NCBI RefSeq assembly: GCF_036322705.1
Contig: NZ_AP027270.1
Coordinates: forward strand, 3,039,501 to 3,103,500
Direction: 5' to 3'
DNA from: Maricaulis maris
Lineage (GTDB): Bacteria > Pseudomonadota > Alphaproteobacteria > Caulobacterales > Maricaulaceae
Length of the DNA stretch: 64,000 nt
In this document: one piece after another, positions 27,399 through 30,055 of the stretch
Numbering within the stretch: the stretch's first letter is position 1
How the letters are laid out: every line of letters begins with the position of its first letter
The notes under the pieces: generated by a model
The model's input: the letters and a program-made list of their open reading frames with translations, nothing else
Databases searched by the model: none
Told to the model about the DNA's origin: nothing
Position numbers and translations under genes: made by a program

Positions 27399-28115
27399 AT
27401 GAGACCGAATGGACGCGCCCGCGATGCGATGCGGGAAATCAGCCTGGAAGCCGGTACCTCGGTCTATGCGGAGGGCTCTTGCCTGGCCCGGTTCGGCGGA
27501 ACCCATGTGCTGTGCACCGCGAGCATCGAGGAGAACGTGCCGCCGTGGCTGCGCGGCGGCGGCAAGGGCTGGGTGACGGCGGAGTACGGCATGTTGCCGC
27601 GCGCCACACACACCCGCTCGCGCCGTGAGGCGACAGCCGGCAAGCAGTCGGGTCGGACCCAGGAGATCCAGCGCCTGATTGGTCGCTCCCTGCGCGCCGT
27701 TGTCGATCTCAAGGCCCTCGGCGAGCGCCAGATCACGATCGACTGTGATGTCCTGCAAGCCGATGGCGGCACCCGTACGGCGGCGATCACCGGCGCTTGG
27801 GTCGCCCTCAAGCAGGCTACCGGCTATCTGATCGAGGAAGGCCTTCTGAAGCGGGATCCGGTCCACGGCCAACTGGCCGCGATCTCGTGCGGTGTCATCG
27901 ACGGCGAAACCCGTCTCGATCTTGAATACGAGGAAGACCGACGCGCTGAGGCCGATGCCAATTTCGTTCTGACGGACACGGGCGGCATTGTGGAAATCCA
28001 GGCGACCGCCGAGGACAAGCCGATCCCGGAAACCGATTTTGACCTGCTGTTCGCACTGGCCAAGGCTGGTGTCGTGGACCTTTGCAAGGCGCAACTGGCA
28101 GCGCTGCAGCGTTAA
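27399..28115 (+). CDS. rph: Ribonuclease PH
   Basis: Phosphorolytic 3'-5' exoribonuclease that trims tRNA 3' ends. The 238-residue protein has the family N-terminus [33 protein letters not shown], the phosphate-site Arg pair in [40 protein letters not shown] and the catalytic acids around [17 protein letters not shown]. In many alphaproteobacteria rdgB and hemW follow immediately; here a 1.3-kb insertion on the opposite strand separates them. It is divergent from hrcA-grpE, the usual arrangement. Confidence 0.97.
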
Positions 28116-28118
28116 AGC

Positions 28119-28147
28119 TTGCACTGTTGCGCCAAGCCGGGTGAATT
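28119..28147 (+). promoter_or_regulatory. Possible promoter of the small RNA
   Basis: TTGCAC (28119-28124), 17 bases and TGAATT (28142-28147) form a possible promoter starting right after the rph stop. The -10 match is weak (3 of 6), but a start about 6 bases later would fall on the first paired base of the structured RNA at 28153. Confidence 0.35.
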
Positions 28148-28152
28148 AAAGA

Positions 28153-28243
28153 ACAGACGGCGGGGGCGCGCTGGGGGGCTGGAAACGGCCCGCACGGCCT
28201 CTTTGGGAAGGGGCAACCGTGCAGGCCCACCCCCACCGTCTGT
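28153..28243 (+). ncRNA. Candidate structured small RNA, about 91 nt
   Basis: The sequence folds by perfect or near-perfect pairing. A closing stem ACAGACGG/CCGTCTGT (28153-28160 with 28236-28243) continues after one mismatch as GGGGG/CCCCC (28162-28166 with 28230-28234). Inside, arm 1 is GGCTG-GAAA-CGGCC (28177-28190) with a GNRA tetraloop. Arm 2 is GCACGG/CCGTGC (28192-28197 with 28217-28222), capped by CCTCTT-TGGG-AAGGGG and a 3-base CAA bulge. About 30 pairs in 91 bases, with a following terminator-like hairpin, favour a plus-strand RNA. It lacks the SRP, tmRNA and RNase P core motifs I know; a 6S-type or novel RNA, or a palindromic repeat, remains possible. Confidence 0.55.
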
Positions 28244-28244
28244 C

Positions 28245-28270
28245 CCGTCGGCACAAGGGCCGGCGGTCTT
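28245..28270 (+). terminator. Hairpin terminator after the small RNA
   Basis: CCGTCGGC (28245-28252) pairs with GCCGGCGG (28259-28266) over 8 bp with one wobble, loop ACAAGG, followed by TCTT. The tail is short, so termination may be modest. It sits 17 bp before the stop of the convergent XRE gene. Confidence 0.5.
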
Positions 28271-28287
28271 GCGGACGACGCGCTGAC

Positions 28288-28512
28288 CTATTCGGTCGCG
28301 TCTTCGTCCTCATCATCGAAACTCAACAGGTCGCCAGGCTGGCAACCCAGTTCGCGGCACAGCGCTTCCAGGGTCGAGAAGCGGACGGCCTTGGCCTTGC
28401 CGGTCTTGAGAATGGACAGGTTGGCCATGGTGATGCCGACGCGGTCGCACAGTTCGGTCAGCGACATCCGGCGCTCGAGCAGCATGCGATCAAGAGTGAC
28501 GCGAATTGGCAT
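28288..28512 (-). CDS. XRE-family small regulator
   Basis: A 74-residue Cro/C1-type DNA-binding protein that is almost entirely the helix-turn-helix (MSLTELCDRVGITMANLSILKTG, then RFSTLEALCRELGCQPGDLL) plus an acidic tail DDEDEDATE. This short YozG-like type is regularly encoded next to DUF2975 membrane proteins, as here (14 bp downstream of one). GGGAG nine bases before ATG 28512 supports the start. It probably binds the palindromic sites upstream of its own operon. Confidence 0.92.
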   Translation of the reverse strand: MPIRVTLDRMLLERRMSLTELCDRVGITMANLSILKTGKAKAVRFSTLEALCRELGCQPGDLLSFDDEDEDATE

Positions 28513-28525
28513 GGTGAGCGTCTCC

Positions 28526-29080
28526 CTAAATCGTCAGTTTTTGTTCTTGGCGCATCCGCGCGCCTTCGCGGAAGACTTCCGCCAGAACCAAAAGCGCCGC
28601 TACGGCGAACCAGGCTCCTAAATCAATATTGCCCGCTGTGCTCAATTCAAGCCCGCCAACCACCGGATTATCCATGTCCAGCAGTGTCAGGATCATCGCA
28701 ACGGCGCCTTGTGTGACATGGCGCAGGATCTGGTAGGCGGCAATTGCGATCGCGATCACCCGCAAATGACCGGCATTCTCCGGTACGAACGGGTCGCCCG
28801 CGATCAGCGTGGCGAAGATCCGGCGCAGTCGATCAATGACTACCAGGCCGGCGATGATTTCGGCCACGAGAATGGGGTAAACCCAGCCCAGATTGCGGAT
28901 TGCGCCCAGCAAGTCGGTGACGAAGCCCGGCGAATAGCCCAGCCAGTCCATCACCAGCGTCGCGCCTGTTGCGAGCAGGACCAGAGCAGCGAAGCCGAGA
29001 AGAGCCCAGGCGAGATACCAGACGATGTCCAGCACCACCTTCAAAACGGATGCCAGTGATCCGCTTCCCAGAGTCTTCAT
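28526..29080 (-). CDS. DUF2975 membrane protein
   Basis: A 184-residue protein with four hydrophobic helices: VVLDIVWYLAWALLGFAALVLLAT, WVYPILVAEIIAGLVVI, the AIAIAAYQILRHVTQGAVAMIL stretch and WFAVAALLVLAEVF. The VIDRLRRIFATLIAGDPFVPENAGHLRVIAIA stretch is the DUF2975 hallmark. The function of the family is unknown; constant pairing with a small XRE regulator suggests that the membrane protein modulates the regulator or is its target. AAGGGG lies upstream of ATG 29080. The XRE gene follows after 13 bp and a 38-residue membrane peptide precedes it. Confidence 0.9.
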   Translation of the reverse strand: MKTLGSGSLASVLKVVLDIVWYLAWALLGFAALVLLATGATLVMDWLGYSPGFVTDLLGAIRNLGWVYPILVAEIIAGLVVIDRLRRIFATLIAGDPFVPENAGHLRVIAIAIAAYQILRHVTQGAVAMILTLLDMDNPVVGGLELSTAGNIDLGAWFAVAALLVLAEVFREGARMRQEQKLTI

Positions 29081-29162
29081 ACCCGCCCCTTCCCTGTTAG
29101 GCGTCGCACGTGAGGCTCACAGACCCTTGCCGGGCCTGTCGAGCCTCACGCGACTTTTTCCA

Positions 29163-29279
29163 TCATGCCGCAACCGGGGCAATGGCGTAAAACGCGCCGG
29201 CGGCGACGGAGACCAGAAGCACCAGGTTGATGACGATCGAGCCGATCATCTGGATGCCTGCATTGTTGGACCTGACCAT
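29163..29279 (-). CDS. 38-residue membrane microprotein
   Basis: A short frame, [20 protein letters not shown]... ending AIAPVAA and TGA, encodes 38 residues with a single hydrophobic helix (about 9-34) after a short polar N-terminus. An AAAGGA lies nine bases before the ATG, it is in the same direction as the DUF2975 and XRE genes, and the gap to DUF2975 is 82 bp. Hydrophobicity, ribosome binding site and position together support a real gene. No family is recognised; it may be a regulatory or accessory peptide for the DUF2975 protein. Confidence 0.65.
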
Positions 29280-29357
29280 TTCACTGTTTCCTTTGTCTTG
29301 TATCTGACCAATTACCGTTGTCATTCATGTTGTTCGGACGACGTTTCCCGTCCTTGT

Positions 29358-29373
29358 TGTTTATCGATAAACA
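29358..29373. promoter_or_regulatory. 16-bp perfect palindrome, probable operator
   Basis: TGTTTATCGATAAACA is a perfect 16-bp dyad in the AT-rich gap between the microprotein-DUF2975-XRE operon and rdgB. On the minus strand TTGCGC lies about 18 bases upstream of its TATCGA core, so the dyad would cover a -10 element of the operon. XRE dimers bind such dyads. Confidence 0.5.
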
Positions 29374-29399
29374 GAAAGATCGGCAGGCGCAAGCGAAAA

Positions 29400-29416
29400 A
29401 TATCGTTTTTCGATAT
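29400..29416. promoter_or_regulatory. Inverted repeat ATATCG-N5-CGATAT
   Basis: ATATCG (29400-29405), TTTTT and CGATAT (29411-29416) form a second dyad 27 bp from the 16-bp palindrome; both share the ATCGAT-like core, and a third CGATAT half-site lies at 29432-29437. The spacing suits cooperative binding by a small dimeric repressor. Confidence 0.4.
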
Positions 29417-29461
29417 AAATTTTTCGAAAGGCGATATGAAATGCGACTGATGGAGGCTGAA

Positions 29462-30055
29462 ATGGGTCATGAAACCTGGGTTCTCGCCAGCCATAATGCA
29501 GGCAAGATCAAGGAGATGGAGCAAATTCTCGCACCATTCGGGGTGGCCCTGAAAAGCGCCCGCGACCTCGATCTGCCTGAACCCGATGAAACCGAAACGA
29601 CATTCCGCGGTAATGCCGCGCTGAAGGCGAGGGCGGCCTGCGAGGCGACCGGCCTGCCCTGCCTCGCTGATGACTCCGGCCTGTCCGTGGATGCGCTGGG
29701 CGGAGCTCCGGGGATTTATTCCGCCCGCTGGGCTGGCGAGCCACGGGATTTCGGCCGGGCCATGCAACGGGTCCAGGATGAGCTCGCTGACAAGGGCGCA
29801 TCTGATCGAACGGCGCGGTTCGTCTGTACGATCGCACTCGCCCGCCCCGGGCAAGAGATTGTCTTCTTTGAGGGAGAGGTCGCTGGCGACATCGTCTGGC
29901 CGCCGCGTGGGCCGGAAGGGTTTGGCTATGACCCGATCTTTCAGCCGCACGGTCATGTGCGGACTTTCGGTGAAATGACCGCCACCGAGAAGCGCGCGCT
30001 CAGCCATCGGGCTCGCGCGCTCGACACCATGATCGCGACCGAGTTCAAGCCGTGA
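29462..30055 (+). CDS. rdgB: RdgB, dITP/XTP pyrophosphatase
   Basis: House-cleaning enzyme that hydrolyses ITP, dITP and XTP to monophosphates, keeping deaminated purines out of DNA and RNA. In 197 residues the substrate loop SHNAGKIKE, the metal-site block [23 protein letters not shown] and the base-binding [10 protein letters not shown] followed by AELT-like [16 protein letters not shown] are present. ATG 29462 has GGAGG five bases upstream; the longer frame reading back to 29318 lies in the regulatory gap. Its stop overlaps the hemW start. Confidence 0.95.

Follow-up and report, generated by a model that had tools for sequence, protein, structure and literature searches.

A conserved structured RNA, likely the terminator-bearing 3' UTR of a DUF2975–Xre operon, in Maricaulis and related genera

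Introduction

Among described systems, the closest in working principle to the locus reported here appears to be icaR of Staphylococcus aureus. Its 391-nt 3' UTR carries a UCCCC motif that works as an anti-RBS, contacting the RBS of the mRNA to which it belongs; translation is thereby blocked, and RNase III cleaves the duplex (PMC7821165). The icaR of S. epidermidis is reported to be without the UCCCC motif (PMC7821165). Our locus in Maricaulis maris resembles icaR in that a regulator mRNA is predicted to have, in its 3' UTR, a C-rich motif complementary to its own RBS. Unlike icaR, the motif is a 10-nt loop at the tip of a compact, conserved structure resembling a terminator; it belongs to alphaproteobacteria and follows a two-gene operon. 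Gene order and strand are consistent with an icaR-type 3' UTR position in 28 of 28 homologous loci, as far as sequence can tell.

Self-regulating sRNAs derived from 3' UTRs are represented in Vibrio by OppZ (PMC7398697) and, reportedly, CarZ. The arrangement proposed here is similar, in that the 3' end of an operon mRNA would act on that same operon. OppZ and CarZ reportedly have features involving Hfq and RNase E; for the present element a cleaved fragment and a dependence on Hfq are hypothetical.

A C-rich loop that pairs with a G-tract in an mRNA leader is described for GsrN of Caulobacter (PMC5869019), and there, as here, the C-rich loop is among the most conserved parts. GsrN is a separate gene with a general-stress promoter, whose homologues typically lie near a stress sigma locus, whereas the present element follows an HTH gene. 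The alphaproteobacterial alpha-R8 sRNAs SisA-D have pyrimidine-rich seeds and a Rho-independent terminator (PMC12559287). Like them, the element is predicted to pair upstream of a start codon through a single-stranded pyrimidine-rich stretch; in contrast to SisA-D, described there as four sibling genes with the motif UUUCCUCCCU, it has a different motif, is single-copy and sits at the 3' end of an operon. We regard the likenesses to icaR, GsrN and SisA-D as likenesses of working principle.

Results

A structured element between rph and a convergent gene pair

In the window (the whole 64-kb stretch of M. maris DNA that was analysed) the structured element occupies the intergenic space between rph, on the plus strand, and a convergent minus-strand pair of genes encoding a DUF2975 protein and an HTH_26 regulator (Table 1). 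A previous, sequence-only reading of the region had placed the element in this intergenic space, with no plus-strand gene 3' of it before rdgB, and we confirm both points. It had also described a strong, closed multi-arm fold with a GGCUG-GAAA-CGGCC hairpin. The fold is reproduced for 28149-28243 on the plus strand (-57.4 kcal/mol, z -4.41, with none of 200 shuffles as good); when flanks are included (28116-28287, plus strand) the z-score weakens to -1.46, with 18 of 200 shuffles as good. The minus strand folds at least as well: 28137-28243 reaches -58.5 kcal/mol with a z-score of -5.26, and with longer flanks (28132-28287) the z-score is -3.79. In the minus-strand structure P1 and P2 stack directly on the 5' side, and the large bulge lies between P2 and P1 on the 3' side.

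Table 1. Positions in the window of the genes and of the parts of the element.
Feature	Position	Strand	Basis or remark
rph (RNase PH)	27399..28115	+	TIGR01966; convergent to element
U-rich tail UUCUUUAAU, probable intrinsic-terminator tail	28145..28153	-	Directly 3' of P1
RNA core, 89 nt: P1 stacked on P2, with an apical loop and a large bulge on the 3' side	28154..28242	-	Folds, conservation, compensatory changes
P1 3' strand	28154..28168	-	Same alignment as P1 5' strand
3'-side bulge GUUUCCAGCCCCCCAGCG, 18 nt, core GCCCCCCAGCG	28169..28186	-	Near-invariant core
P2 3' strand	28187..28197	-	Same alignment as P2 5' strand
Apical loop region UUGCCCCUUCCCAAAGAGG	28198..28216	-	Contains GCCCCUUCCC, candidate anti-RBS
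P2 5' strand, 11 bp with 28187-28197	28217..28227	-	Paired in 97.6% of cells; double changes in 3 of 11 pairs
P1 5' strand, 15 bp with 28154-28168	28228..28242	-	Paired in 100% of cells; double changes in 8 of 15 pairs (19 distinct rows, Maricaulis and second genus)
Spacer from HTH stop codon to element, 45 nt	28243..28287	-	Small hairpin possible; sequence not conserved
Xre/Cro-type HTH_26 regulator gene, 74 aa	28288..28512	-	PF13443, E 6.6e-23
DUF2975 gene, 184 aa	28526..29080	-	PF11188, E 2.6e-9; same direction as HTH gene
RBS region GGGAAGGGGC	29085..29094	-	4 nt before DUF2975 AUG; 10-bp complement of apical loop

An Xre-type HTH gene lies 5' of the element on the minus strand in all 28 homologues, at a spacing of 43-54 nt in the 27 measured, and rph is seen at 22 of the 28 loci. 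Proximity to ecfG, nepR or phyR, or a sigma-EcfG promoter, would be expected of a GsrN homologue; the HTH gene is the constant neighbour instead, and GGAAC-N15-18-CGTT, the sigma-EcfG consensus, is absent from 28000-29600 on either strand. The small hairpin in the spacer recurs among relatives, but its z-score lies beyond -2 in only 4 of 27, and we therefore make no claim for it.

Two minor features lie upstream of the gene pair. A 38-aa open frame at 29163-29279 on the minus strand precedes DUF2975, and the operon may begin with it; small hydrophobic frames resembling it are also found upstream of DUF2975 at two other loci (L016, L017). Farther upstream stands the palindrome GTTTATCGATAAAC (29359-29372). 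Since TTTATCGATAA-like sequences, detected by eye, precede DUF2975 in several other genera, the palindrome may be the operator of the HTH protein.

Distribution, conservation and compensatory change

A DNA search located the element in 19 of 19 Maricaulis genomes. A covariance model built from these 19 sequences was then run against 299 genomes of the order, of which 14 gave a match at E 0.01 (12 Maricaulis and two of a second genus, g3). At a threshold of E 1, 30 of the 137 family genomes gave a match: the 19 Maricaulis, six of the second genus (E 1.2e-15 to 2.6e-14), three of a third Maricaulaceae genus, g2 (weak, with E 1.2e-4, 3.8e-4 and 0.01), and two at E about 0.6 that look like chance and were set aside. 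From the labels on matching records we take the second genus to be mostly Hyphobacterium; an exception is L050, which comes from a genome with 6% contamination and whose matching record bears the label Maricaulis sp. (L138), and one third-genus locus matches a record labelled Robiginitomaculum. Two genomes of the third genus that were examined are without the element.

The most constant part of the element is the bulge core GCCCCCCAGCG, present in 27 of 28 homologues, the remaining one having U for C. The apical CCUUCCC is found in 25 of the 28 and the full GCCCCUUCCC in 23. The helices show compensatory changes, whose absence from relatives the earlier reading had named as a ground for refutation: across 19 distinct rows from Maricaulis and the second genus, 99.0% of the cells of the 26 P1/P2 pairs are paired, and 11 of the 26 pairs show double-sided changes. 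None of 500 shuffles attained the covariation score of the real alignment. By a second measure, which counts further pair types, the real alignment is not above the shuffles (272 of 500). When the alignments were slid, with kinship kept, 35-52% of cells paired; part of this contrast with the real alignment arises by construction, because the structure was derived from these same sequences.

The nature of the changes is apparent in the Hyphobacterium outer stem, where GAAGCAG/CUGCUUC stands in place of CAGACGG/CCGUCUG and P1 is still paired. At the three third-genus loci the lower stem and the segment ACGCCCCCCAG(C/U)GCG are kept, and the upper arm is a different hairpin. In two Maricaulis loci (L014, L020) the element's apical loop is enlarged by an 18-19 nt insert that forms an additional hairpin within it.

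The comparison thus reveals an RNA that, read from the minus strand, comprises P1, P2, a C-rich loop and bulge and mostly a U-rich tail, and is kept 3' of the HTH gene; P1, the bulge core and the position are kept in three Maricaulaceae genera, and the apical loop in two. We consider it very likely that the element is a real conserved RNA. The Rfam search proposed by the sequence-only reading returned no family at gathering score: with Rfam 15 (4227 families) there were no matches at the gathering threshold in the window, nor in the seven of the 28 homologous loci that were checked. Both the comparative alignment and this search support a structured RNA outside known families, with compensatory changes in relatives. 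Sub-threshold Rfam matches (miRNA, Mo riboswitch and others) look like chance. We also discarded 6S RNA as an identity, the only 6S match of the genome at E 0.001 lying elsewhere (RF00013, C1:2550092-2550251, L022, 49.8 bits).

Pairing of the apical loop with the RBS of the operon

The apical loop sequence GCCCCUUCCC (28205-28214) is the exact complement of GGGAAGGGGC, the RBS region of DUF2975. In the genome GGGAAGGGGC occurs 15 times, against 12 for the reversed control; one occurrence is the element's own complement and another is the DUF2975 RBS. One way to judge the pairing is to rank the operon's own start region among those of 46 crudely called genes of the window, by a score that counts contiguous helices and subtracts the cost of opening. 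By this score the operon's own region comes first, with a net -13.1 kcal/mol against -9.0 for the next best (opening the loop costs 1.5 and opening the DUF2975 leader 6.6 kcal/mol), and is also first when opening costs are omitted (-27.5 versus -22.0). With freely extended duplexes it came second (-4.9 versus -5.2).

The ranking was repeated for each homologue with its own element and leader, the background remaining the window genes. For 17 of 19 Maricaulis the first of the 46 places again goes to the start region of the operon itself; the two low-ranked exceptions are the loci with the loop insert, L014 and L020 (ranks 14 and 12), and at one further locus (L012) the first rank arises through the bulge and coding bases. 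A contiguous Watson-Crick match to the apical loop of at least 7 bp is present in 19 of 19 Maricaulis and of at least 10 bp in 11 of 19. For the second genus the first rank is obtained at four of six loci, three of them via the bulge, with ranks 2 and 7 at the others; apical pairing there is just 4-7 bp, with shuffle fractions of 0.10-0.95. The third genus does not keep the RBS pairing (ranks 20 and 29 at the two loci scored). As a control, ten DUF2975 leaders from relatives without the element were paired with the window's element: one (L095) gave -12.8, a pairing as strong as that with the operon's own leader, and the others -7.8 or weaker. With a Hyphobacterium element the same ten leaders gave -13.0 for one and -8.6 or weaker for the others.

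Since RBSs are G-rich, a C-rich loop tends to match them, and because the genomes are related the per-genome ranks are not independent. For both reasons we regard an anti-RBS role in Maricaulis as supported but short of proof. Self-control of the operon by an anti-RBS is plausible, at somewhat below even odds.

The reading we favour, to which we give a probability of roughly 0.5, is that the DUF2975-HTH mRNA ends, on its 3' side, in the structured element, serving as terminator and, less surely, pairing through its loop with the RBS, with a second partner for the bulge. If this is so, then P1 and the U-rich tail would stop transcription of the operon, and in Maricaulis GCCCCUUCCC may in addition pair with GGGAAGGGGC at the DUF2975 RBS. 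The pairing could occur in cis, as a contact between 5' and 3' UTRs, or in trans by way of a cleaved 3'-end fragment; it would either keep ribosomes from entering or lay the duplex open to cleavage by RNase III. Expression of the operon, the HTH regulator included, would thereby be damped. A second partner, either an RNA or a protein, probably recognises the near-invariant GCCCCCCAGCG of the bulge. The fullest form of this proposal is a new Maricaulaceae RNA family: a terminator-embedded 3' UTR element whose open C-rich loop would be an anti-RBS for its own DUF2975, giving negative feedback at the RNA level on an uncharacterised pair of DUF2975 and HTH regulator genes, with a second partner at the bulge. 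This we put forward tentatively, as a little less probable than a coin toss.

If true, the proposal would add a previously undescribed structured RNA family, backed by compensatory changes. It would also offer alphaproteobacteria a candidate case of 3'-to-5' UTR self-control, housed within a compact terminator hairpin. It makes a sharp prediction, a 10-bp loop-RBS pair in M. maris, a marine bacterium, and would provide a first handle on DUF2975-HTH operons. In open-licence PMC full text DUF2975 was found in only two papers, with a single mention in each, and among the titles and abstract openings listed for that literature none describes the element.

The strongest competitor, which we nevertheless hold to be unlikely, is that the element has no partner by base pairing and is conserved as an intrinsic terminator that also stabilises the 3' end of the DUF2975-HTH operon mRNA, its C-rich loops serving folding or binding a protein. 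A GC-rich stem, the 15-bp P1, followed directly by a U-rich tract (at least four T in the first six nt 3' of the stem on the minus strand) is present in 23 of 28 homologues, as this explanation would have it. The tail of the window's own element, UUCUUUAAU, is modest, and the element was passed over by a simple terminator scan that allowed loops of 3-8 only; the sole minus-strand call of that scan lies inside the HTH gene. The third genus also speaks for a terminator and nothing more, in that stem and bulge core stay where the RBS pairing is absent, as does the expectation that C-rich loops match RBSs at some rate. A plain terminator, however, needs just a stem and a U tract, yet conservation is higher in the bulge and the loop than in some stretches of the stem, and the adjoining 45-nt spacer is not conserved.

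Candidate partners in trans

If the 3' UTR were cut, or separately transcribed, it might act as a trans-acting sRNA whose C-rich bulge and loop contact G-rich leaders of other mRNAs. There are two unpaired C-rich stretches, one of them in 27 of 28 homologues, and pairing of a C-rich loop with a G-tract leader has a precedent in the same class, that of GsrN (PMC5869019). The search for partners gave little encouragement, and we judge this explanation improbable. Allowing up to two mismatches, complements of the bulge occur at 107 sites in the genome versus 48 for a control pattern; six of the 107 loci were inspected by eye, none being a convincing start site. Nor is there a promoter-like site in 28060-28600.

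The complement of the apical loop offers one candidate. Two of the 15 GGGAAGGGGC sites stand before a plausible start, one being the DUF2975 RBS and the other belonging to a putative ECF sigma factor gene; a third (L065) precedes the GTG of a 79-aa open frame. At the ECF-sigma-like gene (L142, with relatives L143-L156; 15 of 19 genomes matched, two of the 15 loci being without the frame by motif) pairing reaches -25.2 here, and -21.0 and -22.3 in two close relatives, and is mostly -12 to -17 in the others. The match therefore weakens in more distant relatives, and the AUG that follows it is probably not the true start: a start (MYA or similar) about 23 codons upstream is conserved, so the GGGAAGGGGC site probably lies inside the gene. 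Before that upstream start several relatives have a GGATC...CGTA-like spacing, seen by eye; the gene perhaps has an autoregulated leaderless promoter.

Evidence for the minus strand

The sequence-only reading had taken the element for a small RNA of the plus strand with its own promoter and terminator. A conserved structured RNA is supported, as set out above; a free-standing plus-strand sRNA is not. Counting base pairs distinguishes the strands. Taken as minus-strand RNA, the P1 and P2 pairs of the 19 Maricaulis (26 pairs each) comprise 456 Watson-Crick, 32 G-U, 0 A-C and 6 other of 494 cells; with the six second-genus loci added (n=25) the counts are 599 Watson-Crick, 44 G-U, 0 A-C and 7 other of 650 cells. 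All 44 wobbles are thus legal G-U pairs on the minus strand and none is the reverse, and therefore the wobbles of P1 and P2 fit the minus strand only; on the plus strand the same frame would hold 44 A-C mismatches and no G-U. The RNAalifold consensus energy points the same way (-51.1 kcal/mol for the minus alignment versus -41.9 for the plus).

Folding of single sequences goes against the minus strand: energies are lower for plus in 13 of 19 Maricaulis, for minus in five, with one tie, and both Hyphobacterium loci, folded singly, also have the lower energy on the plus strand. Moreover, the strong plus fold of the earlier reading keeps 611 of 646 cells paired across the 19 Maricaulis, which we attribute to the conservation of the loop sequences. 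We hold to the minus strand despite the contrary single-sequence energies because the preference rests on comparative counts.

The signals proposed for plus-strand transcription fared no better. No sigma-70-like site was found in 28060-28600 on either strand; TTGCAC, if meant as the -35, matches TTGACA at three of six positions, and the upstream GAATTA-type sequence is common to four of 19 Maricaulis genomes, the window's included (both by eye). In the window no run of T follows the hairpin taken for the plus-strand terminator; it is at the minus-strand 3' end that T is abundant, and a T-rich tail on the plus side occurs in 1 of 27 homologues (one further locus being unmeasurable). Given the wobble pattern, the tail, the promoter and the gene linkage, we consider a plus-strand sRNA with its own promoter and terminator very unlikely. 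On the comparative evidence the DUF2975-Xre operon likely has in the element both its 3' UTR, on the minus strand, and its intrinsic terminator.

Copy number and wider searches

Dispersed, REP-like repeats often occur as the element does, as GC-rich palindromes between convergent genes, and the earlier reading had named a repeat with many copies as a reason to abandon its proposal; such a repeat, or a mobile DNA element, has a negligible chance of being the explanation here, the element being single-copy by DNA search in its own 3.14-Mb single-contig genome and by covariance model (other matches there only at E 3.3, the same place on the opposite strand, and E 9.4) and constant in its position 3' of the HTH gene.

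A strict DNA pattern, which misses the window's own variant by design, was used to interrogate one genome for each of 84,980 species and recovered 21 stretches, labelled Maricaulis (15), Hyphobacterium (2), Robiginitomaculum (1) and unassigned MAGs (3); in the three MAGs a 140-nt stretch is identical to loci already counted among the homologues. Carriage by plasmids was considered and dropped, with only four records showing short, weak matches. Of 21 loci taken from other genera, 10 had no HTH frame there; among the 11 that were readable the element was not seen 3' of the HTH gene at 10, and the eleventh is an element-bearing third-genus locus already counted. A motif test at loci without the element was negative at 17 (27 taken; the HTH frame was not found in four).

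At one locus without the element (L091, genus g6) the sequence GCCCCCCAGCGC, which equals the bulge core, runs across the stop codon of the HTH gene and shares bases with the final codons of the convergent rph (KALGG-stop). Its occurrence there could be chance, or it could be a hint that the bulge motif arose from the end of rph.
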